Shown here piece after piece: positions 15,252-42,592 of a DNA stretch of 64,000 bases. The stretch is from Cryobacterium psychrotolerans (GTDB taxonomy: Bacteria > Actinomycetota > Actinomycetes > Actinomycetales > Microbacteriaceae): the NCBI RefSeq assembly GCF_900101115.1, contig NZ_FNFU01000005.1, positions 62,001-126,000 of the forward strand, in the 5' to 3' direction. The translations under genes and the position numbers were made by a program. The notes under the pieces were generated by a model. It worked only from the letters and a program-made list of their open reading frames with translations, had not been told where the DNA came from and did no database searches. Each line of letters opens with the position of its first letter. Position 1 is the first letter of the stretch.

Positions 15252-16358
15252 CTACCGCGCACCAGCCACAAGCTCGTCCATCTTCGCCATGAGCGGTGCC
15301 AGGCCCGCAGGCGCGAGGTGGCCGTACTGATCGAGGGTGATCGACGGCCTGGAGTGCCCCATCGCGCGGGACACGGACAACAGGTCCGCTTCGGCTTCTG
15401 AGAGCGCAATGGCGGCGAAGGTGTGTCGGAGTCCATGGACGTTGATCCGCTTGACAGGCTCCTCGCGACTCTGGTTCGCACGAGCTACTGCACGAGTCAC
15501 GGCGTCAGAGACGTAGCGTTTGCCGATGGCCTGACCAGGCATCCGGGGGCTCGGGAACATCCAGTCGGACTTGGGGCGATCACCGGCCTGTTGCTCGAGG
15601 AGCGGCAGCACGGCCATCAGGACGGGGAGGACGCGTCGACTCGCCCTAGTCTTCGTCGTATCGGTATCACCGCCAGAGTTCTTGACGCTGAGTTGACCAC
15701 GTGAAAGGTCTCCGACGAGTAGCGTGCGGGCCTCGCCCGACCGCAGCCCCATGAGGCCGAGAACCGACAAGAGCGCCTTTTCCCTGTCGTTGGCCGCGGC
15801 ACCGATCACAGCCATCAGCTCCGAAGACGACCAGTGCGGGAGCTCCTTGTGCCCGAGCGAGACGACGATGCCGTCGGTGGGGTCACTGTCGATGAGCTTG
15901 TCGCGGACGCCGCGCTTGATGGCAGCGCGAAACATCTCGAGCTGCTTCTTCCGACTCGAGCGGGCAATATCACTGCGCTGAGACCAGACCTCGATCTCCG
16001 TGGTGTCGATCGTTGAAACGAGCCGATCACCAAAGTGGTTTCGGACACCCCGGGCGTGGTGGTGATCGGCCTCGATGGTCTTCGGTGCCCGGTCGGACTT
16101 GGCAGCTAGATGCCGGGTGAGGAGGGTGTCGACGGTGAGCGAGTCCCGACGGATGCGTTGAGCCTTTGGGTCCTGCATCTGATTCGCGTCGTCGAGGAGC
16201 GCCTGAGCCTTCTTCTGCTCCTTATATGACTGCTTGCGCTGCAGGGCGTCCCGGCCTGTCCCGTCACGCCAGCGGCGCTGCCATCGGTCACGGCCTGCTT
16301 GCCGGCGTTGGGCGATCTCATCCTTGGAGAGGTTCTTCCAGAGGTCATGGACGGTCAT
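15252..16358 (-). CDS. Tyrosine recombinase / integrase
   Basis: 368 residues: an Arg/Lys-rich N-terminus, a SAM-like core-binding domain (about 75-165) and a catalytic domain (about 175-365) with GLRSGEA (Arg), HGLRHTFA (His-x-x-Arg), MGHS and the nucleophile in DQYGHL. It integrates and excises the element at the tRNA-Ala att site 1 kb away. The start overlaps the stop of the upstream HTH gene (ATGA), so the two are cotranscribed and the regulator probably sets integrase levels. Confidence 0.95.
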   Translation of the reverse strand: MTVHDLWKNLSKDEIAQRRQAGRDRWQRRWRDGTGRDALQRKQSYKEQKKAQALLDDANQMQDPKAQRIRRDSLTVDTLLTRHLAAKSDRAPKTIEADHHHARGVRNHFGDRLVSTIDTTEIEVWSQRSDIARSSRKKQLEMFRAAIKRGVRDKLIDSDPTDGIVVSLGHKELPHWSSSELMAVIGAAANDREKALLSVLGLMGLRSGEARTLLVGDLSRGQLSVKNSGGDTDTTKTRASRRVLPVLMAVLPLLEQQAGDRPKSDWMFPSPRMPGQAIGKRYVSDAVTRAVARANQSREEPVKRINVHGLRHTFAAIALSEAEADLLSVSRAMGHSRPSITLDQYGHLAPAGLAPLMAKMDELVAGAR

Positions 16359-25510: not shown

Positions 25511-26317
25511 ATGGAACCACTGATGCCGGGCGATGAGACGCACGTGGTCGTGGCAGGCGACTGGCACGCAAACACCGCCTGGGTCGGCAAAGCCATCCCG
25601 TCGATTGCCCGCAATGCCCCTGAAATACGAACGATCCTCCACGTCGGAGGCTTCGGAATCTGGGCCGGCGCAGGCGGCCGCAAGTTCCTCGACGCCGTCG
25701 ACTTCTGGTGCGTCCGGGCCGGCATCTCGCGCGTGCTCGTCACACCGGGCAACCACGAGGACTGGGATTGGCTGGACAGTGAGTTCAACTCTCAGCCCGG
25801 TGAGCCAGTGGCGCTGAGCGCAGTAGTTGAAGTCCTTCCCCGCGGTTATCGGTTCGAGATCGGCAACAGGACCTTCGCATCGTTCGGCGGCGCTGCCTCC
25901 GTGGACTATGAGATGCGATCAGCGGGTATCGACTGGTTCCCCGGCGAACTGCCCACGGAGCAGGACGTCGAGCGAGCCATCAGCGACGGCCCGGCAGATG
26001 TCCTACTAACACACGAGGCCATCGACGGTGGCACCCCGGCCTCGGAAGACATGCTCCGGTCCAATCCGATGCGGTGGAGCCCGGAGGCTCTGAACTACTC
26101 AAGCCGGTCACGCGCGCTCGTCACGAGGGTCTGGGACAGGGTCGCCCCGAAGTTGCTTTTCCACGGCCACATGCATCTAGCGGACGAGGTAGCGCTGCCT
26201 TCGGGTCAGCAGGTCATTTCGCTCGGCCGTGACGGTCAGGCGAGGAATCTCGCTCTCCTTGAGCTGTCGACGTTGAACTGGCAATGGCTCGAGCGCGCAC
26301 CGAAGGAATCCAAGTGA
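25511..26317 (+). CDS. Calcineurin-like metallophosphoesterase with an altered metal site
   Basis: 268 residues. Phosphoesterase motifs are AGDWH (Asp17, His19), GNHED (about 80-84), LLTHEA and HGHMH. Motif II, normally a Gly-Asp in which Asp bridges the two metals (LHLGD in relatives), reads LHVGGFG, so the bridging Asp is replaced by Gly at about residue 47. The protein may be catalytically weakened or inactive. The stop overlaps the likely GTG start of the TnpB-like gene (GTGA), so the two should be cotranslated. The substrate is unknown. Confidence 0.8.
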   Translation: MEPLMPGDETHVVVAGDWHANTAWVGKAIPSIARNAPEIRTILHVGGFGIWAGAGGRKFLDAVDFWCVRAGISRVLVTPGNHEDWDWLDSEFNSQPGEPVALSAVVEVLPRGYRFEIGNRTFASFGGAASVDYEMRSAGIDWFPGELPTEQDVERAISDGPADVLLTHEAIDGGTPASEDMLRSNPMRWSPEALNYSSRSRALVTRVWDRVAPKLLFHGHMHLADEVALPSGQQVISLGRDGQARNLALLELSTLNWQWLERAPKESK

Positions 26318-27831
26318 GCGCCATCATCCTCGAGCTTCCCAAGAAGCGCAATGACGTGGCCCCAGGGAAATTCGGCAACGGGTCGTTGACCAATCGCGTT
26401 GGGCCGCCTACCAAGGCGAGGAAGCCGCGCGAGGTTGTGCGCACGTATCCGCTGCCGCAGTCCGCGAACGTGCGTAAAACAGAATCGATCGTAGCGATGC
26501 TTGCCCCATGGCAAGCGGGTCTGGTCCGAATCCATTCAGGGCTCACACGAGCGCGTTTTGAGGGCGCGCGCTTTCCGAAGTACCTCGACACGAAACCTCT
26601 CGCCGAAACGAGCGTCTTGACTCAGCGACAGTGGAAATCTGTTACGAATCAGGCGTTCAAGGAGACCCGGTCGTGGGAAGGGATGGCGAAGCTGCGCGTT
26701 GCTGTCCTGATTCGCGGCTCGAAATTACCAAAGAACACCCAATTCTGGCTTTATCAGGTGAACGCTTTCCGGGCGTGGTGGTTCAAAGACGGTTCCCTTC
26801 TCCTCCCAACGGATGAGGAGGCACCACCGGCAGCCGTGTATCGGTTGTCGCGCCAAATGATCAAGCAGGTGACTCGGACGCACCCGCGCCCGCGCCTGGG
26901 TTCCATTCGTACGATGCTGATGGACAGTCTGATTGTGAACGTGGAGCGTTCTCGCGCGAAGACCTTCGATTACTGGGTGAAGATTTCCACCCTGGATCGA
27001 GGTCACCGCGTCATGGTTCCGTTGTCGTCGTATGAGCACATGGAAACTGCACCCGGCCGGGTCCTGCATTACGCGCAAGTTCGCGTCGACACGGACAACC
27101 AGGTGAGCCTGAGCTTGCTGCGGAAGAACGCCCTCGCACCGCTGCGCGGGGACGGCGCAGTGGTGGGGTTGGATTGGGGCCTGTCGCACATGTTTGCGAC
27201 GTCGGACGGGCAACTGCTCGGCAACACCATTTTCCCCTGGTTGAAGGAGCGTGACGCGGAACTTCTCGCACTGACGCGCGCCCTGCAGAAGCAAGGCATC
27301 AAGCTGCGCGCATCACGGCGTTACCGCGAGCTGACGCGCCGCATTCGCGAACACATGGTGAACGAGGTCAACCGAATCCTGAACCAGCTGTCCCGGCGCA
27401 ACATTCGGGCGATCGTGGTCGAGAAACTCGACTTTCGCGGCGGCGGAATGAGCCCGAGCATGAACCATCTCCTGAGCAAATCCGCGAGAGCGACCGTCAG
27501 GGCAAAACTCACCTCCCTCACGGAAACGGCCGGCATCGCGGTGACATATGTGCACCCCGCCTATACAAGCCAGCAGTGCGCGAGCTGCACCAACATAGAT
27601 TTCCGCAACCGGAGTGGAGAGCTCTTCCGCTGCCGGTTCTGCGGACGAGAATCCCACGCTGACGTCAACGGAGCACGAACAATTCTGGGACGTTCCCACA
27701 ATGATTCTGTTCAACTCTGGATGTATCGCGGGATAGTCAAGAAGATCATCGACGCCCAATTCACCCAACGCTGGGGTTCACCCCCGACTGGGCTAACTCG
27801 GCGCCGAGAACCCTCTTCGACCCGCGCCTGA
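26314..27831 (+). CDS. tnpB: TnpB/Cas12-like RNA-guided nuclease (IS200/IS605 OrfB type)
   Basis: 505 residues from the GTG at 26314; an ATG at 26284 inside the previous gene is the alternative. The RuvC-like nuclease is complete: RuvC-I Asp in VGLDWGL (287), RuvC-II Glu in IVVEKLDF (370), a zinc finger CASC...CRFC (Cys 422, 425, 440, 443) and RuvC-III Asp in HADVNGA (450). The 280-residue N-terminal region is long, giving a protein larger than the common TnpB of about 400. No tnpA is adjacent. TnpB proteins cut DNA guided by an omega RNA from the 3' end of the element. Here it overlaps a phosphoesterase gene and lies beside defence genes, which suggests a resident or domesticated role. Confidence 0.85.
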   Translation: MSAIILELPKKRNDVAPGKFGNGSLTNRVGPPTKARKPREVVRTYPLPQSANVRKTESIVAMLAPWQAGLVRIHSGLTRARFEGARFPKYLDTKPLAETSVLTQRQWKSVTNQAFKETRSWEGMAKLRVAVLIRGSKLPKNTQFWLYQVNAFRAWWFKDGSLLLPTDEEAPPAAVYRLSRQMIKQVTRTHPRPRLGSIRTMLMDSLIVNVERSRAKTFDYWVKISTLDRGHRVMVPLSSYEHMETAPGRVLHYAQVRVDTDNQVSLSLLRKNALAPLRGDGAVVGLDWGLSHMFATSDGQLLGNTIFPWLKERDAELLALTRALQKQGIKLRASRRYRELTRRIREHMVNEVNRILNQLSRRNIRAIVVEKLDFRGGGMSPSMNHLLSKSARATVRAKLTSLTETAGIAVTYVHPAYTSQQCASCTNIDFRNRSGELFRCRFCGRESHADVNGARTILGRSHNDSVQLWMYRGIVKKIIDAQFTQRWGSPPTGLTRRREPSSTRA

Positions 27832-28166: not shown

Positions 28167-29327
28167 CTACAGCTGGTCGGTGAAGCTGACCGTGAAGTCA
28201 GCCTCCGGAACGCTGAGGTCGATGCCCCAGTCATGCGCGTACTGCTCGACGAGAGCATCCAGTTCGGCCTCCTGCACGAGCAGCACGCCAGATTCCCAGA
28301 ACTGCTTCTTCACGACGGGCCAAGAGACGGTCATCGACATGAACTCGCCGACGACAACGGCCACAGCGTCGAAATGAGCCCTCTGCTGAGTGGCCCGCTT
28401 CATGTAGCCCAGAACCTGCCTCAATACCGCAGGGAAGTCGTCGCCCATTGTGGGCTTCAGCTCGAGCCCAATCCGGGCGGTCGCGCCCTCAACAACGTCC
28501 GCGTTGAGGAGCCCCCACTTGCTGAAGTACCCACTTGTTGATCGGGGGCAGGTTGACTCGTGCTTCGTTTTGGAGGTGTAGCTCTCGAAGAGACTGAGCG
28601 CGCGATGGGCGGGTATCGCACGTTCGGGGAGCCTGCCTTGGAACGGCCGATAGCCCGGCAAATTGCGGTTGCGGTTGACCTCGGCGATTGCGGCGCGGTC
28701 CTCTACCTTCTGCTTTCGCGCGTGATGAAGACGACGGAACTCCTTAAGCGCGGCTAACGCGTCAGTATCATCCCGGTTTATCACCTCCACACCATGAGGC
28801 GGGAGCTCGTCAGGGACGTCAGGCAGTGGAATCGGCACGCAAGAGCAGCTCGGTTCGCTCGGGGGGTCCATCTCGCTCGATGCGCCGTAGTAACTGAACT
28901 GCACGTCCCAGGCGTTCACCTCAAAGGACCGCTGTTCGATCGACGGGTGCGAGGAAGTCACGTGACCGGCCAGGGCTGCGCCGACGAGGGATTCCGCCTC
29001 ACTCTGGACTTCTGACGCCGTGCGCAGTTTGCGACCGGCAGAGAACATCGCCACAGCGGCGAGGCAGTAGGCGTCCTGGGTGAACTTCGCCTGGAGCGCG
29101 TTGTGTTCGGGGGTCTCGGCCGGCTCTGCTGTGGCGTTGCCCAGGCCGGCGACGCTGCCGTTCACGAAGAACTGGACGAGTGTCGGGTTCTTCTCCTGGA
29201 ACCAGGGCTGGGCAAGCGCCCACTGCACGTAGGCAGGGTCGGTGGCCATGACCTCGGCCGCGGACTTGCCGCTGTGCTTGCCGAAGCGGATCATCGGCGG
29301 GTCTTCTACTCTGACGATCTCGGACAT
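28167..29327 (-). CDS. Predicted PD-(D/E)XK nuclease with ExoX-C-like N-terminal domain
   Basis: 386 residues. Residues about 12-55 (RFGKHSGKSAAEV, YVQWALAQPWF) match the ExoX-like C-terminal module also called DUF3820-like. A helix rich in Glu (105-120), a strand ending in Asp141 (VNAWDVQF), then E289-L-K291 (GLELKP) and Q304-V-L-G-Y308 give a D...ExK...QxxxY pattern of PD-(D/E)XK exonuclease-type nucleases, split by a 130-residue insertion. The ATG at 29327 is chosen because AGAGGA precedes it. It lies between tnpB and the Wadjet operon, so a defence or DNA-processing role is inferred. I do not know a characterised homologue. Confidence 0.6.
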   Translation of the reverse strand: MSEIVRVEDPPMIRFGKHSGKSAAEVMATDPAYVQWALAQPWFQEKNPTLVQFFVNGSVAGLGNATAEPAETPEHNALQAKFTQDAYCLAAVAMFSAGRKLRTASEVQSEAESLVGAALAGHVTSSHPSIEQRSFEVNAWDVQFSYYGASSEMDPPSEPSCSCVPIPLPDVPDELPPHGVEVINRDDTDALAALKEFRRLHHARKQKVEDRAAIAEVNRNRNLPGYRPFQGRLPERAIPAHRALSLFESYTSKTKHESTCPRSTSGYFSKWGLLNADVVEGATARIGLELKPTMGDDFPAVLRQVLGYMKRATQQRAHFDAVAVVVGEFMSMTVSWPVVKKQFWESGVLLVQEAELDALVEQYAHDWGIDLSVPEADFTVSFTDQL

Positions 29328-29759
29328 GGTTGATCCTCTTTCTGGGGTGTGTGGCTGGGTGGATCCACGAAGCCGTCGGCGGCGCCGGGCGGTTCGTGGG
29401 AGGGAACGTAGTGGGGACGCGTGTCGATGGTGCGCGCGTCGGTGCACGGCGGTCGAGCCGATGTCAGACCCGGGGCCGAGCATGGGTCCATGCAAACGTC
29501 GTCGTCGACCTGGTCCGCGCCGAACTTGGCGGGTGGCCGCGTACGCACTCAGATTGCGCAGCCGACGGACGGCAATCGACCTGTTCAAGCGGGTCAGTAA
29601 TGCGGAACGGTGGCGCTAATTACCGGCTTACTAACTCCGACAAATCTCAGATTCATGTAGATATTTAGAGACGAATTTGCGCGGTAAGGGAGTAAGGTCA
29701 CAAGCATTACTGCATTTCCGCGACAGCAATACCCGAAATTAGAATCTCTAGGAGCCGAT
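29328..29759. other. Divergent promoter region of the nuclease gene and the kfrA-jet operon
   Basis: About 430 bp without a supported gene. The right 150 bp is AT-rich for this genome and contains GTAAGG-GA-GTAAGG (near 29681-29697) and TAGAAT (29740-29745) as a possible -10; TAGGAG precedes the next ATG. Confidence 0.4.
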
Positions 29760-30293
29760 ATGAGCCAGGACATCGAGATCATCTCCTCTGCCGAGGACAG
29801 GGCCATGCGCGCCGCCGACCAGTTGGCCGCCGAAGGCGCCAGTGTGACGGCCGCAGCCGTGCGCCAGCGCAGCGCTGTCGCCATGTCAACGGCCGCGGCG
29901 GCAACGAAGGCCTGGAAAGCGCGCGAGAAGAAGGCCGTGGAGGATTCCACCGAGCCAGTGCCGGAACATCTCCAGGCTCGCTTCCTCTCTGTCCTCGAAG
30001 GGGTGTGGCGCGAAGCGCGCACTCTCACGCACGCGGAGGTCGATGAACTCCGAGTCGCCGGGGACACGAAGCTGCGCGCATCCGAGGAGGAAGTGGCACA
30101 ACTCACCGCAGCGGTCGAGGAGCTTGAGCAGGAGAGCGAGCGTGCCGCAGAGAGGGCCGACGACCACGCGTCCCAGCTTGCAGCCGAACGATCGCGAGCA
30201 GACCGCGCCGAGGGTGCGCTGGCGGCTGTGACCGAAGAGCGAGACCGACTACTCGCCCAGCTCGATGCGGCTCGCGCCGCGACGGTCAGCTGA
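29760..30293 (+). CDS. KfrA-like DNA-binding coiled-coil protein
   Basis: 177 residues. The N-terminal part (about 10-75) has the KfrA_N pattern (AADQLAAEGASVTAAAVRQR, then AATKAWK), a helical DNA-binding domain from plasmid partition/stability regions. Residues about 95-172 are a long Glu/Ala/Arg coiled coil. TAGGAG precedes the ATG. KfrA proteins repress their own promoters and can build filaments on plasmids. The gene ends 34 bp before jetA in the same direction, so it is probably part of the Wadjet operon and may be its repressor. Confidence 0.7.
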   Translation: MSQDIEIISSAEDRAMRAADQLAAEGASVTAAAVRQRSAVAMSTAAAATKAWKAREKKAVEDSTEPVPEHLQARFLSVLEGVWREARTLTHAEVDELRVAGDTKLRASEEEVAQLTAAVEELEQESERAAERADDHASQLAAERSRADRAEGALAAVTEERDRLLAQLDAARAATVS

Positions 30294-30327
30294 CGCGGAC
30301 CAGGTTGCAGTGATGGGAGTGGGGGGC

Positions 30328-31815
30328 ATGGCAACAGGTATTGAGGGCGACGTCGCACGTATTGAGGCGGCACTGAACACGCCCACCCTGAAGCTTCTGG
30401 ACCGCAAGTCCGCCGGCGTCATCATGCCCATCTTCGCCACCGTGTTCACGCAGGACACGCAGTCCATGCCGGTCGAGCGCTTCCACAGCGTCGTCGATGC
30501 TCTGCTCGACGAACTCCGAAGCACCGGGCACGCTGTGCCCGTGGGCGGCGGGAAAGCGCTGGCGATGCAGTGGGTGCGGGAGCGCTGGCTCTACCGCGAT
30601 CCCGGCCGCGGCCAGGAGACTTACCAACTCACCGGCGACGCGAAGCAGGCGCTGGACTACGTGACGCGGGCGACCCGCACTCAGCTGAACGTCTCGGTGT
30701 CTCGCATCGAGACCATGCGACGTGTCGTCTCCGAAGCGGCCCTGGTGGCCAACCCGGACCGCGAAGAGCGCAAGCGCCGTCTCGCGGAGGAGATGAGCCG
30801 CCTTCAGGCTGAGTACGAGCGGCTGGACGGCGGCGGCGAGCTGCCGGGATCCTCGGAGTCCGAGCTGACCGAGCAGTTCGCGAATGTGCTGCGCGAACTC
30901 GACGGCCTCCCCTCCGACTTCCGCCGGGTCGAGGAGACTGTCCGGGATATGCACCGGGACATCACCAAGCGGTTCCGCGAAGAGGAACGTCCGGTCGGCG
31001 AAGTGGTGGATGACTATCTGGACCAGTCGGACAATCTGCTGACGGGGACCCCGGAGGGTCGCGCGTTCTCGGGGGCTCTGGAGCTGCTCCGCAAGCGCGA
31101 TTGGCTGACGAGCATGCGCGTCGATCTTGAGACGATCCTCGCCCACCCTTGGGCGGGCACGTTGCTTCCCGATGAGCAGCGCCAGCTCAGGACGACTGTC
31201 GAGGTAATTCGGCATGGCATCTCCGATGTCCTCGGCCAGCGCACACGCCTCACGGCGACGCTGCGCGAGCACATCGAGAACTACGACCACATCAAGAACC
31301 GCGAGCTCGACGCTGCGCTGCGCTCGGCCGATCGCGAGATGCGCATCTGGATGCAGTCGGCCAGGGCCCGTGACCATGTCGAGGTGGAGATCATCCCGCC
31401 GGGCATGGACATTGCGGCGCTGCGGTTCCGGACGTTCGACCCCGAAAGCGAACGCGCGCCCGAGCCGCTCGAGGACGTTTCCCAGGGGGCTCCTGCGGCA
31501 CTGTCTCTCGACGACATCCGGAAGCAGGGCGGGCCGTCGTTGGACCAGCTGCGTCGGCAGATTGAGGCGAGTCAGGCCGCGGGCGACCTTGAGTCTGCCG
31601 CAGCGCTGTTCAACACCCTGCCGGAGGACCTGCGCCGGCCGGTTGAGATCCTCGGCCTCTTGCACTTGTTCACCCGGATGGGCGGAGAGATCAACCCGGG
31701 GCTGCGTGAGTCAGTCTCCGCAACGCGGCCGGACGGGACCACCCGGCGGTTCCTCATCCCGACATCCACGCTCCAGGCAACCGAGAACGCTAATCCCGAG
31801 GGGGAACCACGATGA
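30328..31815 (+). CDS. jetA: Wadjet subunit JetA (DUF3375)
   Basis: 495 residues. The N-terminus (IEAALNTPTLKLLDRKSAGVIMPIF, winged-helix region with RERWLYRDPGRGQETYQLT) and the helical middle are those of DUF3375, the kleisin-like subunit of type I Wadjet. JetA bridges the JetC SMC heads and binds JetB. The ATG at 30328 is chosen since GGAGTGGGG lies just upstream; an ATG at 30313 is possible. The stop overlaps jetB by 4 bp. With jetB, jetC and jetD it forms an intact plasmid-defence operon. Confidence 0.93.
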   Translation: MATGIEGDVARIEAALNTPTLKLLDRKSAGVIMPIFATVFTQDTQSMPVERFHSVVDALLDELRSTGHAVPVGGGKALAMQWVRERWLYRDPGRGQETYQLTGDAKQALDYVTRATRTQLNVSVSRIETMRRVVSEAALVANPDREERKRRLAEEMSRLQAEYERLDGGGELPGSSESELTEQFANVLRELDGLPSDFRRVEETVRDMHRDITKRFREEERPVGEVVDDYLDQSDNLLTGTPEGRAFSGALELLRKRDWLTSMRVDLETILAHPWAGTLLPDEQRQLRTTVEVIRHGISDVLGQRTRLTATLREHIENYDHIKNRELDAALRSADREMRIWMQSARARDHVEVEIIPPGMDIAALRFRTFDPESERAPEPLEDVSQGAPAALSLDDIRKQGGPSLDQLRRQIEASQAAGDLESAAALFNTLPEDLRRPVEILGLLHLFTRMGGEINPGLRESVSATRPDGTTRRFLIPTSTLQATENANPEGEPR

Positions 31816-32690
31816 CCGACACCCTGACAAACGACGAGGGCGTCCTCGCTGTCGACTCTGTCGACACAGACCCGATCGACGACCTTGAGGCGCTCGAGGC
31901 TTACGACGTGGATGCCTACGCCGTCGAGGCGGCGCCGAACTTCGAGGACGACGAAGCTGACCAGACCAGCCTGGCGATGTTCGAGGGGGACACGGGCACG
32001 CTGTATCCCGAGCAACGACGCTGCCTCCACGCGCTGCTGAAGCACCGGTACATCTCGGCCGATCGTCACCCTGAGCAGTGGGCGGTCCTCATCGTCAACC
32101 AGGACGTCATCAAGAGCCACTTGAACAATCTGTTCCTCGAACTCCACGTCGACCGCGACTTCCAGGTCGCGTTCAAGCGACAGGCCAGCGCGGAGACCGG
32201 GGATCCGCTCCCGTCACTCTTGCGCGACATCTCCCACACCAAGGAGGAGACCATCATGATGCTCTTCCTGCGGCAGAGGTTTTTCGCCCAGCGTCAGGAG
32301 GGCGAGGACATCGCGTTCGTGGACCGTCAGACGTTGCTCGACGATGTCGCCGACATGCGCCCCGAGCACGCCACGCACCGCGCCATGGACCAGAAACGGG
32401 CTGACAAGGCGATCGACGCTCTGGCCAGCGCCGGCGTGCTCCTGAAGACCGGGGACCCGGACCGATTCAGGATCTCGCCGATCATCGAGGTCCTCCTGCC
32501 GGTCGAGCGGGCCAACGTCCTGGCGACGTGGCTGATGGCCCAGAACGGCACCGATGCGCCTGACTCGGACGACGCCGACGCAGACAGCGACGCAGACAGC
32601 GACGCAGACAGCGACGCAGACAGCGACGCAGACAGCGACACCGACGGCACGCTCGACTTGCTGTTCGACATTGAGGAGGAAGACGCATGA
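31812..32690 (+). CDS. jetB: Wadjet subunit JetB (DUF4194) with an acidic Asp-Ser repeat tail
   Basis: 292 residues. The core (about 60-245), with RRCLHALLKHRYIS and the winged-helix part DKAIDALASAGVLLKTG, is DUF4194, the KITE subunit that dimerises on JetA in the Wadjet SMC complex. The C-terminus (about 250-292) is strongly acidic, made of five DADS units encoded by five identical 12-bp repeats, followed by DIEEEDA. The tail is an unusual addition. It overlaps jetA and jetC by 4 bp each. Confidence 0.92.
   Translation: MTDTLTNDEGVLAVDSVDTDPIDDLEALEAYDVDAYAVEAAPNFEDDEADQTSLAMFEGDTGTLYPEQRRCLHALLKHRYISADRHPEQWAVLIVNQDVIKSHLNNLFLELHVDRDFQVAFKRQASAETGDPLPSLLRDISHTKEETIMMLFLRQRFFAQRQEGEDIAFVDRQTLLDDVADMRPEHATHRAMDQKRADKAIDALASAGVLLKTGDPDRFRISPIIEVLLPVERANVLATWLMAQNGTDAPDSDDADADSDADSDADSDADSDADSDTDGTLDLLFDIEEEDA
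32577..32636 (+). repeat. Five perfect 12-bp tandem repeats inside jetB
   Basis: The unit GACGCAGACAGC occurs five times without change from 32577 to 32636. The unit is four codons (Asp-Ala-Asp-Ser), so copy-number change keeps the frame and would alter only the length of the acidic tail. Confidence 0.95.
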
Positions 32691-35600
32691 CGCTCGACCT
32701 GATGATCCCTGCGCAGCCGAGGCCGGGAACGGGCCATGCGCAGTGGCGTATTGAGGCGCTCCAGATGGCGAACTGGGGCGGTTTCCACGGTCGCACCGAG
32801 GTGCGCTTCTCACCCGGTTCCAACCTCATGTCCGGCGCGTCGGGATCGGGGAAGTCGACGGTGCTGGATGCGTATCTCGCACTGATGATGCCCTCTGACA
32901 CGCCGTTCAACGGGGCCTCGAACGATGCGGGCGGGCGAGCCCGCTCGGCCGAGCAACGCAACCTGTTGACCTACCTGCGCGGCAAGATGGACACGAACCG
33001 TGTCGACGGCTCGGACGAGCTGCGCGACCAGGTGCTTCGCGGCGGCAAAGGCGAGCCCATCTGGGGTGCACTCGCCGGGACGTTCATCAACGACGACGGT
33101 CGGCGCTACACCGCCCTCCGGATGTACTTCGCCAAGGCAGGCGCGAGCGTGGGCGGCGACGTCACGACGACCTTTGCCACTGTCGAGGGGTATCTCGACA
33201 TCTCCCGACTCGCCCCGCTGGCTGACACGCGGTTCGACAAGCGTGCGCTGAAGGCCGCCCTTCCGGGCCTGGTCACCTTCAACACGTTCTATGAGTTCGA
33301 GGACAACATCCACACGCGCCTGGGCATCGGCGGCGGTGACGGCGGCCGGAAGGCCATGCGACTGCTTGCCCGCGTCCAGGGAGGCATGCAGGTCAAGCGT
33401 GTCGACGGCCTCTACAAGTCGATGGTCCTCGAGGAGCCGATCACCTACCGGGTCGCCGACGACGCTCTTGCGCACTTCGCCGATCTGGAGGCCGCCTACC
33501 TCAAGATGACCGACGAGGCAGACAAGGTCAAGGCGCTGCGCCGGCTGCCCGGATTGCAGCAGGACCTGGCCGGGGCCGAGGCGAGAGAATTCCTGATCCG
33601 TCAGTTCGGCGCCGAGGATGCGGGCCCCTCGCCGTTCCGGCTCTGGATGCTGCGCACGGAGCGGGAGTTGCTCGACACCGCAGTGGCGGAGAACCGCCGG
33701 AAGCATGCCGAGACCACGACGACGTACACGCAGGCCAAGGCCGACGAAGCCGAATACGAACGCCAGCTCACCCAGATCGCCGAGGACAAGCGCAGCAACG
33801 GCGGCGATGCAATCGACGAGCGCAGGAGCGAGATGGCTCGCCTCAGCCGCAGCCGAGACGAGGTCTACAACTCCAACGTGAGGTTCCAGACGCGCACTGA
33901 GGCGATTGATCTGGTTGCGCCCGAGACCGTGGAGCAGTTCGCTGAGGCGCAGGTCGCCGCGGCGGACTTCTTGGCGGGGTTCGGCGCGCGTGAGGCGGCG
34001 CTCCTGGTGACGGAGGACGAGGTCCAGGACGAACGTGCCCCGTTGACCAGCCGCCAGGTGGATCTCATGAACGAGAAGAAGTCCCTCACCGGGCGCTCCG
34101 GGATGGTGCCGAAACGACTGCACGAGGCAAGGGTGCAGATGGCGCAGGCCGCAGGCCTCGACCCCATGGTCGACCTGCCGTTCGTGGCTGAGCTCCTCGA
34201 CGTACTGCCGGAGGAATCGCGCTGGCGCTCGGCCGTCGAGAACACGCTCGGCGGTATCGCTCGGACCGTGTTGGTTGACCGGCAGACCCGAGACCGGCTC
34301 TCCGCCGCCATTGACGGGGTCCCGATCCGGCCGCGCATCCGCTACCAGGCGGTTAGCCTCGCCGAGCACGAGGACTGGCGAGGTGATCCCGACCACGTCT
34401 CGGGGAAGCTCGCGTTCAAGGATTCACCGTTCTCGCGCTGGGTTCAGGACCGGGTCGGCGACACCGGCGTCGACCACCTGTGCGTTCCCGACGCAGCCTC
34501 GCTCACCGGCCAGGGGGCGCGCGTCACCCCATCCGGGCAGACCCGCAACGGCGACAAGGGCGCGCACGGGGAGTCCGGGGAGGGCGACATCATCGGCTTC
34601 TCCAATGAGCACCGGCTTGCCGACATCGACCGGCTGCTGGCCGAGCTCGAACCCGAGATGGCCGCGATGCGGAAGCGTCTTGCCGACGTGCAGGCACGCC
34701 TGAGCGATCTCCGCCAGCAGAAGGACGCGCACGGCTACGTCCAGGACGCCACCTGGGCGGCTATCGACCATCTCGGCATCGACCGGCGCATCGTTGAACT
34801 CGAGGACGAGATCGCACGGCTGCGGTCCGCCAACAGGATCCTGGATGCGTTGCAGGCTGACGAGGAACGCATTAAGCCGCTGTTGAAGGAGGCCAATCGG
34901 GTCAAGGTCCTCGCCCACGAGGGCAGGAACAACCTGGAGGCCCGTCACGGCAATCTGGTGTCCGATCAGGACGAAGCCCAGGACGGTGTGGACGCGATCG
35001 TCAATGCGCAGACCGCCACCGTCACCGAGGCCCAGCAGGACTACCTGGATGCTCTGTTCACGGGCAACTGGGACGCCACGAGCCTGGACTCGTTCGCCAG
35101 GAACATGAACGCCCTGCGCAAACGTCTCGGGGAGGAGAGCGAGGCCGCGCGCAAGACCGCCCGCAACGCGGTGAGCGCGATGGAGAGCATGTTCGAGGCG
35201 TACAAGGACCGTTGGACGGAGCACAACCTCGGCGTCAAGGTCGCCTCCGCAGACGGCTACCGCGAGATCCTCGACCGGATCGAGTCGGAGGGGTTGTACG
35301 AGCGCCGGGATCGGTGGAGGCGTGAGTTCGCTGCCTGGTCCAGCGACGACCTGTTGCGCCTCAACGACGCGTTCGACACCGCACTCGAGGACATCGAGGA
35401 CCGGCTTGCACCGATCAACCGGATTCTGGAGACGCTGCCGTTCGGCGGCAAGGGCATCCTTCAGATCAGCCTCCGTCGCTTGCAGAGCGACGAGCTGGGC
35501 AAGTTCCGTCGTGGTCTTCGCGAGCTCTCGTCTGGACTCGCACAGGAGCTCACCGAGCAGCAGGTTGAGAGCCGGTTCACGAAGCTTCAGGAGTTCATGA

Positions 35601-36103
35601 CCCGTCTGCGCATTCCCGAAGGCCACACCAAGTCCTCGACCTCGCAGCGGGACCGGTACCTCGACGTGCGCCAGCATGTCGCCGTGACCGCGGTGTGTCT
35701 CGACGAGGATCGTCGCGAGATCGCCAACTACGACTCTCTCGGCGGTAAGTCCGGCGGGGAGACCCAGGAACTCATCGCGTTCATTGTTGGTTCGGCGCTG
35801 CGGTACCAGCTCGGTGACGAGTCGCGTTCACGGCCCCGGTTCGCGCCGGTGTTCCTCGACGAAGGGTTCGTCAAGTCCGACGGCGAGTTCGCCGGCCGGG
35901 CCGTCAAGGCATGGCAGGACCTCGGATTCCAGCTCGTCATCGGAGCGCCGCTCGACAAGGTGACGGCTCTTGAACCCCACATGGACCGGCTCCTCACCGT
36001 CACCAAGAACGAGCAGGGGTACTCCTACGTTCAGGATTTGCTCGACGAGCCTGACGGGCAGCTCGACGAGCTCGACGATCAGATCGCCGGAGACGCAGCA
36101 TGA
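32687..36103 (+). CDS. jetC: Wadjet SMC ATPase JetC
   Basis: 1138 residues, an SMC/MukB-like ATPase. Walker A is GASGSGKST (50-58). Long coiled-coil segments flank a hinge-like region near 450-640. The ABC signature GGKSGGETQ lies near 1019 and Walker B VFLDEGF near 1056. JetC dimers extrude plasmid DNA loops with JetA and JetB until the complex stalls and JetD cuts. All ATPase motifs are intact. The gene overlaps jetB and jetD by 4 bp, giving a single translationally coupled operon. Confidence 0.94.
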   Translation: MTLDLMIPAQPRPGTGHAQWRIEALQMANWGGFHGRTEVRFSPGSNLMSGASGSGKSTVLDAYLALMMPSDTPFNGASNDAGGRARSAEQRNLLTYLRGKMDTNRVDGSDELRDQVLRGGKGEPIWGALAGTFINDDGRRYTALRMYFAKAGASVGGDVTTTFATVEGYLDISRLAPLADTRFDKRALKAALPGLVTFNTFYEFEDNIHTRLGIGGGDGGRKAMRLLARVQGGMQVKRVDGLYKSMVLEEPITYRVADDALAHFADLEAAYLKMTDEADKVKALRRLPGLQQDLAGAEAREFLIRQFGAEDAGPSPFRLWMLRTERELLDTAVAENRRKHAETTTTYTQAKADEAEYERQLTQIAEDKRSNGGDAIDERRSEMARLSRSRDEVYNSNVRFQTRTEAIDLVAPETVEQFAEAQVAAADFLAGFGAREAALLVTEDEVQDERAPLTSRQVDLMNEKKSLTGRSGMVPKRLHEARVQMAQAAGLDPMVDLPFVAELLDVLPEESRWRSAVENTLGGIARTVLVDRQTRDRLSAAIDGVPIRPRIRYQAVSLAEHEDWRGDPDHVSGKLAFKDSPFSRWVQDRVGDTGVDHLCVPDAASLTGQGARVTPSGQTRNGDKGAHGESGEGDIIGFSNEHRLADIDRLLAELEPEMAAMRKRLADVQARLSDLRQQKDAHGYVQDATWAAIDHLGIDRRIVELEDEIARLRSANRILDALQADEERIKPLLKEANRVKVLAHEGRNNLEARHGNLVSDQDEAQDGVDAIVNAQTATVTEAQQDYLDALFTGNWDATSLDSFARNMNALRKRLGEESEAARKTARNAVSAMESMFEAYKDRWTEHNLGVKVASADGYREILDRIESEGLYERRDRWRREFAAWSSDDLLRLNDAFDTALEDIEDRLAPINRILETLPFGGKGILQISLRRLQSDELGKFRRGLRELSSGLAQELTEQQVESRFTKLQEFMTRLRIPEGHTKSSTSQRDRYLDVRQHVAVTAVCLDEDRREIANYDSLGGKSGGETQELIAFIVGSALRYQLGDESRSRPRFAPVFLDEGFVKSDGEFAGRAVKAWQDLGFQLVIGAPLDKVTALEPHMDRLLTVTKNEQGYSYVQDLLDEPDGQLDELDDQIAGDAA

Positions 36104-37299
36104 AGGCGCCTGACACCGTCGTCGCGGACATCCGGCGCCGGCTGAGTGATAGGTGGCACACGGACCTGGTCGGTGGGGAAGCAGCGTTCCCGCACGCGTT
36201 CCCCCTCGGGCGCTTGGACGCCGACGCTCTGCGTGACGACTACGCGCCCATCCACGCGTGGACGGTCGGCATGCAGGACTGGGCTCGGCGAACCGGCGTT
36301 GTGCTCGATTACACCAACCGGAGAGCCAAGGGCGGCACTGTGCAGGCCGTCCCGGCTCACGCCCGAGTCGAGTCCATCGACGACGCCGCCCGGATTGTGG
36401 GCGGGGACTGGTCTGACCGGCTCGGGCGGGCCCGCATGCGGCTGGCCATCCTGCGGGAGGGCTACCCCCAGATGATCGACATCGGTCGCACCCTGCGGCT
36501 CATCGACACGTACGCAGCGGTCGACTTCGGGTTGCTTCTCACCGTCGCCGATTGGTACCTCCAGGACCCGGCTCGCGCCGCGCTCGGCGTCACCCCGAGG
36601 CAGGTCCCGCTCCCAGGCGTGCACGCGAAGTGGCTCCAGTCGCACAAGGCCGGGGTCCAGGCGCTCACAGGGCTTGCAGACCTGAGCCTCTTGCCCGAGC
36701 ACTCGTCGCGTATTCACTTCACCTACCTTGACCCCGATCACAGGGCTGCCGGTGGGCGCGTCCACGATTCGGCCACAGTGGGCGACTCCTTCGTGCCTGC
36801 TTATCAGCCCGAGGTCGTCATCATCTCGGAAAACAAAGACACAGCCATCCACTTCTTGCCCCTTGCCGGCGGCATCTCTGTCGAGGGCGTGGGCAAGGGC
36901 GGCAAGACGGTCGCGTCGTTCCCCTGGATCCGAGACGCGCCCGTGGTCGTCTACTGGGGCGACATCGACCGGGATGGGTACGAGATCTTGGACGGCTACC
37001 GCGCCGACTTCGATCGCGACGTCGACTCGATCCTGATGGACCCCGAGACCTACGAGGCGTATGAGCAGTTCGGTACTGACCTCGACAAGAATACGAAAGC
37101 GATCACGGCCGGAGCCCCGAGGCCAGGGACGAACCTCCATGCTGACGAACGGGCTGTGTATCTACGTGTTCTCGATGCTCAGCGCACCGGGCATCGGCGG
37201 GTCGAACAGGAACGGATTCCCTTGGGTCGGGCACTTGAGGCTGTGCAACTGGTCTGCAAGCAGTCCGTATCGGGTGTCTACGAGGGTCTGACGCCGTGA
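36100..37299 (+). CDS. jetD: Wadjet nuclease JetD (DUF3322 and DUF2220/Toprim)
   Basis: 399 residues. The N-terminal DUF3322 part has FPLGRLDADAL, and the C-terminal Toprim domain has SENKDTA (Glu, about 244) and YWGDIDRDG (Asp-x-Asp, about 287-289), related to the topoisomerase VI A subunit. JetD is the endonuclease that cleaves circular DNA captured by the JetABC motor. The catalytic residues are present. It overlaps jetC by 4 bp, and its stop overlaps the GTG of a small downstream gene. Confidence 0.94.
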   Translation: MKAPDTVVADIRRRLSDRWHTDLVGGEAAFPHAFPLGRLDADALRDDYAPIHAWTVGMQDWARRTGVVLDYTNRRAKGGTVQAVPAHARVESIDDAARIVGGDWSDRLGRARMRLAILREGYPQMIDIGRTLRLIDTYAAVDFGLLLTVADWYLQDPARAALGVTPRQVPLPGVHAKWLQSHKAGVQALTGLADLSLLPEHSSRIHFTYLDPDHRAAGGRVHDSATVGDSFVPAYQPEVVIISENKDTAIHFLPLAGGISVEGVGKGGKTVASFPWIRDAPVVVYWGDIDRDGYEILDGYRADFDRDVDSILMDPETYEAYEQFGTDLDKNTKAITAGAPRPGTNLHADERAVYLRVLDAQRTGHRRVEQERIPLGRALEAVQLVCKQSVSGVYEGLTP

Positions 37300-37469
37300 C
37301 CGCATCGACGCCCGGGAGGATCGAGCACACACCGCCGTTCGCGACTTGTCTGCGCGACTTGAACGACCAGAGCGTTCGTGACGAGATCGTCTCGGAGGCG
37401 CGGAAGGACGCGAACGCGACGCTGCTGCGCAAGAGTCGTGCTTCTACCCGTGCGCGCCAAGCCAGCTAG
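37296..37469 (+). CDS. Small charged protein coupled to jetD
   Basis: 57 residues starting VTASTPGRIEHTPPFATCL and ending in a basic tail KSRASTRARQAS. The GTG overlaps the jetD stop (GTGA), the same coupling used through the operon, which supports it as a real gene. No family is recognised. It is highly charged and helical, perhaps a nucleic-acid-binding or accessory peptide of the Wadjet operon. Confidence 0.5.
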   Translation: MTASTPGRIEHTPPFATCLRDLNDQSVRDEIVSEARKDANATLLRKSRASTRARQAS

Positions 37470-37702: not shown

Positions 37703-38269
37703 TCAGGCGGTGAGTGCCGCCGGCGCCCAGGCCGGCCAGGAAGGCTCGCCGATCAGCAGGCCATGTTCATACTCCGCGACGCGGCGGAACGGGTTGCTGG
37801 CCGTGCTGTTGTCGAAGAACTCAGTGCGATGAGCCGTCGTGCGGGCCGCTGCGATGAGGTCCCACAGTCGTGCGTACCGCTCGCGAATCTTCTGCTCGGG
37901 CACGTCATGACCGCCGTAACGCACGCGTTCAGCAACACGACTCACCGCCACGTCGACGGGAAGCAGGATCACGTGCAGATGCACGAGGTAACCGCGTGCA
38001 ATCGCATCATCAACGAGGTCGAGTTTGCTCGGATGGCTGAACACCGTCTCAGTGATGAAAGATTTTCCGGCTGCCAGCAGCTGCACGCGCTCGTCGGCCG
38101 CGGCGCGAGATGCTTCGTAGGCATGCTCGGACTGGGCATCAGGCCAGCGCTCGGCGGCAATCACGTCGGCGTTCACAAACGGAAGGTGCGTCACCGGTTC
38201 CAGAAGGTGGGCGACGTAGGTGGACTTTCCCGAGCCGTTCGGCCCGGCGAGGAGGTGAAGGATCGGCAC
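37703..38269 (-). CDS. Zeta-toxin-family kinase
   Basis: 188 residues. A P-loop AGPNGSGKSTYVA (about 8-20) and the following NADVIAAERWP and FITETVFSHPSK segments match zeta-like kinases, which phosphorylate UDP-N-acetylglucosamine or other nucleotide sugars and stop growth. The start is a GTG 3 bp after the stop of the antitoxin-like gene upstream, so the pair is an operon. Confidence 0.85.
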   Translation of the reverse strand: MPILHLLAGPNGSGKSTYVAHLLEPVTHLPFVNADVIAAERWPDAQSEHAYEASRAAADERVQLLAAGKSFITETVFSHPSKLDLVDDAIARGYLVHLHVILLPVDVAVSRVAERVRYGGHDVPEQKIRERYARLWDLIAAARTTAHRTEFFDNSTASNPFRRVAEYEHGLLIGEPSWPAWAPAALTA

Positions 38270-38272
38270 CTG

Positions 38273-38647
38273 TTAGGCGTCGTCTTGCTGAGCGTGGTGA
38301 CGTTTGACCAGATGGCCCTGCGCGTCCGCTTCGCTCCATGAGCGTCCGGATTTCGCGAACTCGGTGGCGAGATTCAGCTTGGCCCGTCGCTCGTCCAGCT
38401 GCTCATCCCAGCTTGCCCGCACCACCGCCTGGTCACGTTCGCCGAGGTTGTCGTACTTGTAGCCGGCCTCGCCCGCGAGCACGCGCTGGACATCGCGGGG
38501 GCTTGTGCCAGGCGACGCCTCGAGCTCGCGCCCGATCCTGGCCCAATGGCTGATCTGCTGCGCAGCACTCCGGCTTGCAACAGCGCCAACTGATTTCGCG
38601 GCCTCAAAGAGGTCGCCGTCCACTCGCATCGGCATTGTGGTGCTCAT
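38273..38647 (-). CDS. ParD-like antitoxin
   Basis: 124 residues. The N-terminus has MRVDGDLFEAAKSVGAVASR and QISHWARIGRELE, the pattern of the ParD-like family of type II antitoxins with a ribbon-helix-helix fold. The C-terminal half is charged and likely disordered until bound. It precedes the zeta-type toxin by 3 bp. The ATG at 38647 begins the family homology; an upstream in-frame start would add 52 unlikely residues. TGTAGCAAACTGCTACA just upstream is a perfect palindromic operator candidate. Confidence 0.8.
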   Translation of the reverse strand: MSTTMPMRVDGDLFEAAKSVGAVASRSAAQQISHWARIGRELEASPGTSPRDVQRVLAGEAGYKYDNLGERDQAVVRASWDEQLDERRAKLNLATEFAKSGRSWSEADAQGHLVKRHHAQQDDA

Positions 38648-38651
38648 GCTG

Positions 38652-38675
38652 TGAGTGTAGCAAACTGCTACAGGA
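38652..38675. promoter_or_regulatory. Palindromic operator candidate before the parD-like gene
   Basis: The bases around 38656-38672 read TGTAGCAAACTGCTACA, with TGTAGCA and TGCTACA arms around an AAC core. It lies within 10 bp of the start of the antitoxin gene, where autorepressing antitoxins bind. Confidence 0.6.
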
Positions 38676-38699
38676 AGGTCGAGATGTTTCGACGAGTGA

Positions 38700-38963
38700 T
38701 TAGCGCAGTGGGGTGCGCAGCGGGTAGTGCAGCACGACCTCGCCGGCCAGGCTTCGACGATAGGACGCGTCATGGTCGTCGGCGCGGCTCGCGCGGTGGG
38801 CAACCGTGGCCATGTGACCGTTGGTGCCCCCGCACATCGCGCAGTGCTGCGGCGTGCTCGAGAATCTGCTGGCGTAGAGGCGCCGGGCGCCGCAGTCGTC
38901 GCAGATCCAGTTTCCGCAGGCGCGGCATGGTGCGGCCTCCAGAGTTGCCTCGGTATTCGACAT
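38700..38963 (-). CDS. Small zinc-ribbon protein
   Basis: 87 residues with two CxxC pairs and more: CRACGNWICDDCG, then CAMCG. This is a treble-clef/zinc-ribbon arrangement, followed by a basic C-terminal half. GAAGGG lies upstream of the ATG. It sits between two toxin-antitoxin operons. The function is not recognised. Confidence 0.55.
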   Translation of the reverse strand: MSNTEATLEAAPCRACGNWICDDCGARRLYASRFSSTPQHCAMCGGTNGHMATVAHRASRADDHDASYRRSLAGEVVLHYPLRTPLR

Positions 38964-38992
38964 TGGCTTGCACCCTTCGTGGGACGTATGCG

Positions 38993-39253
38993 CTATTGGT
39001 AGACCTCACGACGGTGCGCCACGCGGACCACCGTCACGACGGGGGCATCGTCGAGAAGCTCGTACAGCACCCGGTAATCGCCCACTCGAATTCGCCATGC
39101 GTTGCTTTCGCCCGTGAGCTTCTTGCAGCCGGCGGGCCGGGGATCGTGCTCCAGCTCGGCAATGCCGGCCAGGATGCGGCGGCGGATTCCGAGGTCAAGC
39201 TTTCTGATTTCTTTGGCGGCCGCGGTGGTGAACTCGACGCGGTAGGAACTCAC
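38993..39253 (-). CDS. relE: RelE/ParE-family toxin
   Basis: 86 residues with the RelE fold pattern: YRVEFTTAAAKEIRKLD, a helix RRRILAGIAELEHDPRP, KKLTG, WRIRVGDYRVLYEL and VVRVAHRREVY. The C-terminal Arg/His/Tyr set used for ribosome-dependent mRNA cleavage is present. It overlaps the antitoxin gene by 4 bp. Confidence 0.93.
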   Translation of the reverse strand: MSSYRVEFTTAAAKEIRKLDLGIRRRILAGIAELEHDPRPAGCKKLTGESNAWRIRVGDYRVLYELLDDAPVVTVVRVAHRREVYQ

Positions 39254-39528
39254 TCGTGTTGCTCAGAACCCGTGAGTTCAGAAAGCAGTTCGCCCAGGCC
39301 GACGCGCTCACCGTCATCAGCGGTCTTCGCTGCTCGGTACTCGGCGACATCCCTGTGCATTTCGAGCTGCTCGAGGAGCTCAAGATCTTCGGGCCCGATC
39401 AGCACGGCCGCCAGCTTGCCATTCTTGGTGATCTGGACGCGCTCGTGACCATAACCGGCACGGTTCACAACATCAGCGAGATCCCCGCGGAGGGACCGAA
39501 TCGTGACGGAAGAGGTGATGGTGTCCAT
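39250..39528 (-). CDS. Phd/YefM-family antitoxin
   Basis: 92 residues. The N-terminal Phd/YefM DNA-binding region includes SSVTIRSLRGDLADVVNRAGYGHERVQITKNGK split into typical strands, followed by IGPEDLELLEQLE and an acidic tail that wraps the toxin. It overlaps relE (ATGA). Direct GTGTACACA/GTGTGGACACAC palindromic bases upstream (about 39547-39585) are operator candidates. Confidence 0.92.
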   Translation of the reverse strand: MDTITSSVTIRSLRGDLADVVNRAGYGHERVQITKNGKLAAVLIGPEDLELLEQLEMHRDVAEYRAAKTADDGERVGLGELLSELTGSEQHE

Positions 39529-41550: not shown

Positions 41551-41928
41551 ATGACAAATCTGGCAATGCGCCCACTGCGGCGCTCGGCGCACAAGGCCTC
41601 GGTGCAGTTGTCGTCGACGTCGATCGTGACGCGCCTTCAGGAGGTTCTCGGGCGTGATGTAGTCGCGATCATAACCAGCAAGACCCCCCGGCAGGTCTCG
41701 CGGTGGGTTGCAGGCGAAGCGAAGCCTCCTCTACAAGAACAACGCCTGCTGCGAGACACGTTCCAAGTCGTCGAGCTCCTGGCAGAGGTTGACCCGGATG
41801 AGGTCGTGCGCGCATGGTTCATCGGAATGAACCCGCAGTTGGACGACGCGGCGCCGGCAGAGTTAATCGCCGAGGGCCGAGTCCGTGATGTGATGGCTGC
41901 CGCGCGCGCGTTCGTTAATGCCGGTTGA
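41551..41928 (+). CDS. Xre/MbcA/ParS-type antitoxin of a RES system
   Basis: 125 residues. An HTH region (LQEVLGRDVVAIITSKTPRQVSRW) is followed by the toxin-binding segment ending in AWFIGMNPQLDDAAPAELI and VMAAARAFV, as in DUF2384/MbcA antitoxins. The ATG at 41551 begins the protein; a GTG at 41527 is possible. It overlaps the RES toxin gene by 11 bp. Confidence 0.88.
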   Translation: MTNLAMRPLRRSAHKASVQLSSTSIVTRLQEVLGRDVVAIITSKTPRQVSRWVAGEAKPPLQEQRLLRDTFQVVELLAEVDPDEVVRAWFIGMNPQLDDAAPAELIAEGRVRDVMAAARAFVNAG

Positions 41929-42592
41929 ACTTGCCCTGGTCTTCGCCCCATCCCCGCTGTGGCGGGTTGAGCGCACCGACCCGGCTCTTCGCTTCTCCCT
42001 GCTCAACCCCGTCGATGTGATGAATGACCGAGCCGGGAACCGGTTCGACATCCCCGGCGCTGGTGTCCTCTATGGCGCGACGAAAGCCGACGGCGGCTTC
42101 GCTGAAACATTGGCCGGTTTCCGTCCACGCGCGTCCATGGTCGGAGCGTTCAACAAGCTCACGCCGGAACCGGGCCGAGTACTCCCCGGGCAGGTCCCTG
42201 CGGCCTGGCTCAACACACGAAGGCTGCGGACCTTCGACGAGACGGGATCGCTACCGTTCGTTGATATCGAATCGCCGGCCACCCACGCCTACCTCACCGA
42301 GCAAGCCGCGACGGTTCTCCTGCACCAGGGGTTGGAAAACCTTGATGTCGCTGCCGTGCGGGGTCCGAACCGGCTCCTGACGCGCGCGATCGCAAGCTGG
42401 CTCTATTCCCGTACCGACGAACATGCACTCCCGCTCTACGCGGGGATCCGCTACGTGTCCCGGCTCGGTGACTTCGAGTGCTGGGCGATTTTTGACGGCA
42501 CACCCGTTGAGGTTCGCTCGTCAGCCCCGGTGGATCCGACAGATCCGGCGCTCAGGAAGGTGCTCGAACTCTTCGGCATGTCAATTGCGTAG
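41918..42592 (+). CDS. RES-domain toxin (NAD+-degrading family)
   Basis: 224 residues of RES domain: LWRVERTD, GVLYGATKADGGFAETLAGFRP, a central RLLTRAIASWLY and AGIRYVSRLGDFECWAIFD. The Arg, Glu and Ser residues that name the family are present. RES toxins such as MbcT deplete NAD+ and are neutralised by the Xre/MbcA partner encoded just before. The overlap with the antitoxin gene supports coupled translation. Confidence 0.9.
   Translation: MPVELALVFAPSPLWRVERTDPALRFSLLNPVDVMNDRAGNRFDIPGAGVLYGATKADGGFAETLAGFRPRASMVGAFNKLTPEPGRVLPGQVPAAWLNTRRLRTFDETGSLPFVDIESPATHAYLTEQAATVLLHQGLENLDVAAVRGPNRLLTRAIASWLYSRTDEHALPLYAGIRYVSRLGDFECWAIFDGTPVEVRSSAPVDPTDPALRKVLELFGMSIA

Follow-up and report, generated by a model that had tools for sequence, protein, structure and literature searches.

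Why should a plasmid-type gene stand at the head of an operon predicted to act against plasmids? The question is raised by a 64,000-nucleotide stretch of the Cryobacterium psychrotolerans genome sequence (contig NZ_FNFU01000005.1, positions 62,001 to 126,000), referred to here as the window, in which a kfrA-like gene lies directly in front of the four genes of a Wadjet system. Judged from gene order, related loci and upstream repeats, this kfrA probably encodes a plasmid-type autorepressor and, as the first gene of the Wadjet operon, sets the expression of jetABCD. The system itself is known; its regulatory arrangement appears to be a new variant, recurrent in a small clade and with a testable candidate operator.

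By its predicted products the locus is a complete and intact type I Wadjet operon, from which plasmid exclusion or cleavage is predicted. For all four jet genes, which form a single operon, the best PADLOC models are those of type I Wadjet, and all three jet-jet junctions (A/B, B/C and C/D) are ATGA overlaps of 4 bp (Table 1). JetC contains a Walker A motif, GASGSGKST, at residues 50-58, LGGKSGGETQ at 1018-1027 and LDE at 1057-1059, and the JetD Toprim residues E244, D288 and D290 are each invariant in an alignment of four JetD sequences. Among solved structures, those closest in sequence are of JetC and MksG/JetD. The start of jetA was chosen by its (G/D)IEG motif, which is near the N-terminus in most of the clade relatives described below. 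A sequence-only reading of the window had described jetABCD as intact, with 4-bp overlaps and catalytic motifs; the coordinates, Pfam and PADLOC matches and motif positions all agree. Subunits, gene order and motifs are thus those of type I Wadjet (JetABCD; also MksBEFG and EptABCD), from which the locus differs by a first gene of the KfrA family and an operator-like array upstream. In the accessible part of PMC10586767, Wadjet is presented as a four-subunit system and KfrA is not mentioned. The tail of JetB is Asp-Ser/Ala-rich and is encoded by a perfect 12-bp tandem repeat of 5.3 copies (32576-32639).

Table 1. Positions of the kfrA-led Wadjet locus and its flanking features in the window (HTH, helix-turn-helix; ORF, open reading frame)
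Feature	Position	Strand	Basis
Candidate KfrA operator, six TTAC/GTAA boxes	29597..29710		Box density; binding predicted
kfrA-like leader, 177 amino acids, HTH head and one long helix	29760..30293	+	Pfam KfrA_N
jetA (DUF3375, kleisin)	30328..31815	+	Pfam 2.8e-91; PADLOC JetA1 9.9e-167
jetB (DUF4194, KITE)	31812..32690	+	Pfam 1.6e-36; PADLOC JetB1 1.5e-85
jetC (MukB/SMC-like ATPase; SbcC/MukB-like)	32687..36103	+	PADLOC JetC1 E=0; PDB JetC matches
jetD (Toprim nuclease; DUF3322 and JetD_C)	36100..37299	+	PADLOC JetD1 3.5e-79; MksG/JetD structure matches
57-codon ORF	37296..37469	+	GTGA overlap with the jetD stop; not supported as a functional part

The leader gene ends 34 bp before the start of jetA, and its KfrA_N domain scores 41.9 bits against a Pfam cut-off of 26.1, so both the position and the family named in the sequence-only reading hold. 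In the AlphaFold2 model of the protein (mean predicted local distance difference test score, pLDDT, 93.7; predicted template modelling score, pTM, 0.46) helices occupy residues 11-24, 31-38, 42-63 and 69-176, the last of them 108 residues long. The model shows a globular HTH head and a long alpha-helical tail, as expected of a KfrA-type protein. Foldseek gave no PDB match to this fold at E 0.001, the matches listed being mostly HTH regulators, and a leader profile compared with solved structures matched mainly coiled-coil proteins, with tropomyosin the best at E 0.0047.

The DNA in front of kfrA carries a dense array of short boxes, with GTAA at 29597, 29684 and 29692 and TTAC at 29620, 29628 and 29707. 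The array is 114 bp long and includes two direct pairs at an 8-bp pitch, in opposite orientation. Six boxes in the 170 bp before kfrA are reached by 1 of 1000 dinucleotide shuffles. The 213-kb contig has at least five boxes per 170 bp nowhere else, its densest cluster being the kfrA upstream region, and both of its TTAC-N4-TTAC pairs lie in the array.

The placement of kfrA at jetA is not confined to the window. A JetD-alignment scan of named genomes gave 31 loci, to which the later genome G1230 was added, and the tree and identity table cover 16 loci and the window. The closest Wadjet clade comprises 11 loci including the window; concatenated JetABCD identity to the window is 59.5-75% for the ten others, and the next of the 16 is at 48.9%. 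Upstream DNA can be read in ten of the 11, the contig of L111 beginning inside jetA. The Arthrobacter bambusae locus L114 was excluded from the clade, having a JetD fragment only (68% identity over 133 residues) and no jetABC match. An intact kfrA is present at jetA in three of the ten readable loci, or two of nine without the window. In Tessaracoccus sp. SD287 (L094) kfrA lies 21 bp upstream of jetA on the same strand; in Nocardioides cremeus (L093) the two genes are divergent and 195 bp apart. Arthrobacter sp. Hiyo4 (L092) has a probable kfrA remnant, a frame-shifted similarity that ends 28 bp before jetA and scores 27.3 bits; this is reached by 3 of 500 shuffles (best 30.4), and four kfrA-less clade members score 17.7 or less. 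The best single matches in Hiyo4 cover only JetA 72-492 and JetC 1-476, so that decay and sequencing error would look alike here. The Agromyces locus (L090) has no kfrA; a 90-amino-acid MerR-like HTH ORF, below the Pfam cut-off, overlaps jetA there by ATGA (L090:4054-4326), so DNA-binding proteins of other kinds may occupy the leader position. There is likewise no kfrA before jetA in the Arthrobacter loci L091 and L119, which are near-identical upstream and hence not independent, in Propionibacterium australiense (L095), in N. donggukensis (L096) or in G1230 (L148), where transposase-like debris was recognized by eye.

Among 394 genomes of the class the leader protein has matches in two, and among 396 of the phylum KfrA_N exceeds the cut-off in two; the window's own genome is one of the two each time. 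With such rarity, it is unlikely that kfrA came to stand beside jetA by chance. A whole-genome search of 23 genomes with the KfrA profile matched four. In N. cremeus and Tessaracoccus the jetA-linked copy is the sole match; in G251 and G011 the match is away from jetA. Family searches centred on N. cremeus (198 genomes) and Tessaracoccus (197) added one clade member, G1230; for those centred on Agromyces (204 genomes) and Arthrobacter (202), at an E limit of 1e-140, the centre genome was the only hit. Across the order, the JetA model matched in 124 of 297 genomes, and 76 of the 124 were searched for KfrA_N, which was found in seven; by comparison of coordinates only the window copy is beside jetA. 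Upstream genes vary widely among those listed for the order's 40 fetched jetA loci, none of which matched the jet-linked KfrA profile, a three-sequence profile that also missed the distant KfrA in L121. JetA was found in nine plasmid records, with no gene annotated KfrA upstream in the six regions read; in two of these plasmid loci (L173 and L177) the short same-strand ORF nearest jetA is, by eye only, unlike KfrA. The linkage is therefore real, but turned up in a single lineage and is not universal there. Repeated linkage in actinobacteria, which the sequence-only reading had looked to as support, is borne out within this clade, by two intact copies in nine other loci and one probable remnant, and not in the loci examined elsewhere. 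The random gene content upstream of jetA that it had set against a functional role occurs for Wadjet generally.

Arrays of boxes accompany these other kfrA genes too. Five GTTAC/GTAAC boxes precede kfrA in N. cremeus (1 of 1000 shuffles) and four in Tessaracoccus (0 of 1000), and each of the two loci has a single TTAC-N4-TTAC pair, located before kfrA. The two kfrA genes not linked to jetA are preceded by three and two boxes, the latter count being a weak one, as the start in L089 was not located and the fallback is about 36 bp off. Six clade loci without an intact kfrA (L090, L091, L092, L095, L096 and L148) have no boxes in the 170 bp before jetA. In Hiyo4, the region 450-620 bp before jetA, close to the expected start of a full-length kfrA, contains two TTAC/GTAA boxes, a neutral result (39 of 1000 shuffles).

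As the box word had been picked after looking at the sequences, it was tested on plasmid kfrA genes found later. With the N. cremeus leader as query, five plasmid kfrA homologues were identified among 72,556 plasmid records. Two of the five, used as queries, returned the same five records, and the G251 leader returned one of them. The window leader itself had no match among plasmids and phages, and four scans of viral contigs (JetD, the leader and an alignment of each) gave no confirmed relative. GTAAC/GTTAC arrays of 5, 4, 3 and 4 copies are present before four of the five plasmid genes, each count being reached by 3 or fewer of 1000 shuffles. The plasmids with such arrays are those of Tessaracoccus, Paenarthrobacter, Pseudarthrobacter and Microbacterium.

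The best described relative is KfrA of the IncU plasmid RA3. In the part of PMC7783346 that is accessible, this protein is an autorepressor whose operator consists of five 9-bp repeats around a -10 motif, three one way and two the other, of which two close repeats are enough for some repression in vivo. The array of the Paenarthrobacter plasmid follows the same three-plus-two plan. As far as that account extends, RA3 KfrA shares with the leader an N-terminal HTH and a long helix (for the leader, in the model), and with the window array short iterated repeats in both orientations in the region of its own promoter. The two differ in length, the tail of RA3 KfrA being described to residue 355 and the whole window leader having 177 residues, and in box word, which is GTAA[GT] in the window or GTAAC in its relatives and TGTATTGTA in RA3. 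They also differ in setting, since the window kfrA heads a defence operon and that of RA3 belongs to a plasmid stability module. The HTH region reads TAAAVR..SAVAM in the window leader and TARAVR..xGVxM in most other KfrAs, a difference that could fit the changed box word, although it rests on one sequence, which proves nothing.

Autoregulation through an iterated operator could work as follows. A KfrA dimer or oligomer would bind the TTAC/GTAA array and repress its own promoter. Because jetABCD is on the same strand, behind a gap of 34 bp and with no terminator-like site predicted at 29300-30400, it would be transcribed together with kfrA, and the KfrA loop would thus hold Wadjet at a low, self-limiting level. 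At that level JetABC would act as the loop-extruding motor of the structural maintenance of chromosomes (SMC) type and the JetD nuclease would cut closed-circular plasmid DNA, so that KfrA would influence plasmid defence. The suggestion in the sequence-only reading that the leader is an operon repressor gains support from the box array and from KfrA biology as covered in the accessible part of PMC7783346, and binding of the array is predicted.

Several observations weigh against a repressor-led operon. Seven of the ten readable clade loci have no intact kfrA, and outside the clade there was none before jetA among the loci examined, where the genes in that position include leuS-like, Fic-like and transposase-like ones, as identified by eye. 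KfrA_N is less rare within the order, where it is away from jetA in six other genomes. In N. cremeus the gene is divergent, so a single transcript is not the rule. The box word was chosen after inspection, and its exact form GTTAC/GTAAC has no copies in the window array, which has only the TTAC core in common with the others. Genome-wide, TTAC-N4-TTAC is not enriched (8 matches, against 16 for a backwards control), and the tandem array at C20:156621 sits between convergent genes. The Xylanimonas plasmid kfrA is without a GTAAC/GTTAC box and has three GAAAC-type repeats instead. The DNA before kfrA and the DNA before jetA are not quite a like-with-like comparison, and no sigma-70-like promoter was recognized in 29300-30400. 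As RA3 KfrA also serves plasmid maintenance in the accessible part of PMC7783346, repression is possibly not the sole job of the protein.

The main rival account is that of a hitchhiking kfrA. Here the gene would be a backbone gene of a mobile island or former plasmid, behind which jetABCD landed, or which itself landed in front of jetABCD, without any coupling between them. In its favour, most of the clade loci that can be read lack an intact kfrA, the operon lies among integrase, HTH_17, DNA polymerase A, TnpB-like and toxin-antitoxin-type genes, plasmids of Tessaracoccus flavescens and Xylanimonas carry kfrA homologues close to parA, and in trees the jet-linked KfrAs form no single group separate from the plasmid KfrAs. 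What speaks against it is that kfrA occupies this slot in Tessaracoccus as well and, in divergent orientation, in N. cremeus, with no other KfrA-profile match in either genome. Hitchhiking is regarded as possible but rather doubtful. It is very unlikely that the coiled-coil KfrA is instead an adaptor, which contacts JetABC or DNA and steers SMC loading, or shields a host element from Wadjet. RA3 KfrA does oligomerize and have partners among other plasmid proteins (PMC7783346, as far as accessible), and a 108-residue helix would suit such contacts; the contact itself has no sequence evidence, however, and Wadjet persists without an intact kfrA both in the loci examined outside the clade and in most of those within it. 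The boxes, too, are concentrated at kfrA's own promoter region. The idea in the sequence-only reading that the leader links the SMC motor to particular DNA is not supported here.

If the autorepressor reading is true, a repressor of the plasmid-maintenance type heads an anti-plasmid operon; the defender has then, unexpectedly, turned a plasmid part to its own use, and the question is raised of whether plasmid DNA itself controls the system. KfrA could then be a plasmid sensor, with the KfrA arrays in the kfrA promoter of an incoming plasmid titrating the chromosomal KfrA off the jet promoter and Wadjet being switched on. This extension is unlikely as things stand. The jet-linked boxes of Tessaracoccus and N. 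cremeus use the same GTAAC word as the plasmid arrays; that of the window, GTAA[GT], differs, and a sensor there would therefore respond to a different plasmid group. From the array, operators can further be predicted for a KfrA subfamily of actinobacteria.

A KfrA-controlled Wadjet is described in none of the top-ranked literature matches, from a search whose coverage left out bioRxiv preprints and most subscription journals, and these matches contain little on how Wadjet expression is set. PMC12375680, the one paper within that coverage to mention both Wadjet and KfrA, does so in its accessible part without connection between them. DNA-binding regulators beside defence genes are known otherwise, as with the WYL-type regulators of defence islands (PMC9122601, accessible in part). 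BrxR is such a regulator. The protein family is an unrelated one, and the window KfrA is of plasmid type and tied to one Wadjet clade.

The window contig has 213,059 bp and 66.7% G+C. At about 1-10 kb there is a cluster that, from the starts of the translations, presumably comprises FHA, PP2C phosphatase, FtsW, penicillin-binding and two protein-kinase genes. Owing to this cluster the window reads as chromosomal, and the Wadjet operon apparently is so; a plasmid kfr stability module, in contrast, is plasmid-borne and adjoins partition genes. Vibrio cholerae, too, has a gene annotated KfrA_N on a chromosome, according to the accessible part of PMC11288032. The region around the operon, at about 15-43 kb, contains a tyrosine integrase (15252-16358), the HTH_17, DNA polymerase A and TnpB-like genes and several toxin-antitoxin-type genes, on account of which the operon probably belongs to an integrated island. 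No exact direct repeat of at least 14 bp was found between 13.0-17.3 kb and 38-46 kb that would mark the island ends. The TnpB-like protein has 515 amino acids and a Cas12f1-like TNB domain (26284-27831) and is encoded 1.9 kb before kfrA. The toxin-antitoxin-type genes behind the operon, at 37703-39528 and 41918-42592, comprise a zeta-like kinase with a ParD-like gene, a RES-domain gene, and ParE with Phd/YefM. A tandem 8-bp GTAACTCA-type array, with a core like that of the KfrA boxes, is present at C20:156621-156648 (L162) and is not at a promoter; it was rejected as a second KfrA target for its simple-repeat look and its position between convergent genes.

The 57-codon ORF that follows jetD had been put forward as a coupled small gene. 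The ORF and its GTGA overlap exist, and its codon bias is slightly coding-like, at 0.20 bits per codon, where the remaining forward frames score -0.56 and -0.01. This bias is weak, however: of 1250 open segments of 57 codons drawn at random from the window, 29% score as high. An NTGA overlap at the jetD stop is common, occurring in 10 of the 14 other loci listed (11 of 15 with the window). Pfam and PADLOC gave no match, the best tblastn hit against the comparison loci collected by then had E 1.1, and none of 15 other loci inspected has a similar ORF behind jetD. Its standing as a gene and functional part is thus not supported, and it is highly improbable that the ORF encodes a genuine fifth subunit of Wadjet or a small jetD-coupled regulator. 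In N. donggukensis (L096, from 11143) a 327-amino-acid ORF with no Pfam match has an ATGA overlap with the jetD stop.

The C. psychrotolerans genome has a second jetABC, on contig C43, with neither jetD nor kfrA found within the 16.4 kb examined. By profile search, JetD is absent within the fetched stretch in 34 of 40 JetABC loci of the order, including that on C43, a few of the stretches ending soon after jetC. In 16 JetABC loci inspected downstream the next genes are, by eye, seemingly unrelated. JetABC without JetD may therefore be a widespread nuclease-less, condensin-like form. Several JetABC loci of the order, among those listed, are preceded by a gene that looks leuS-like by eye. L072 and L075, from two genomes, show a further possible KfrA-led pair, in which a longer KfrA_N gene is directly before a gene that, by eye, is alpha/beta-hydrolase-like.

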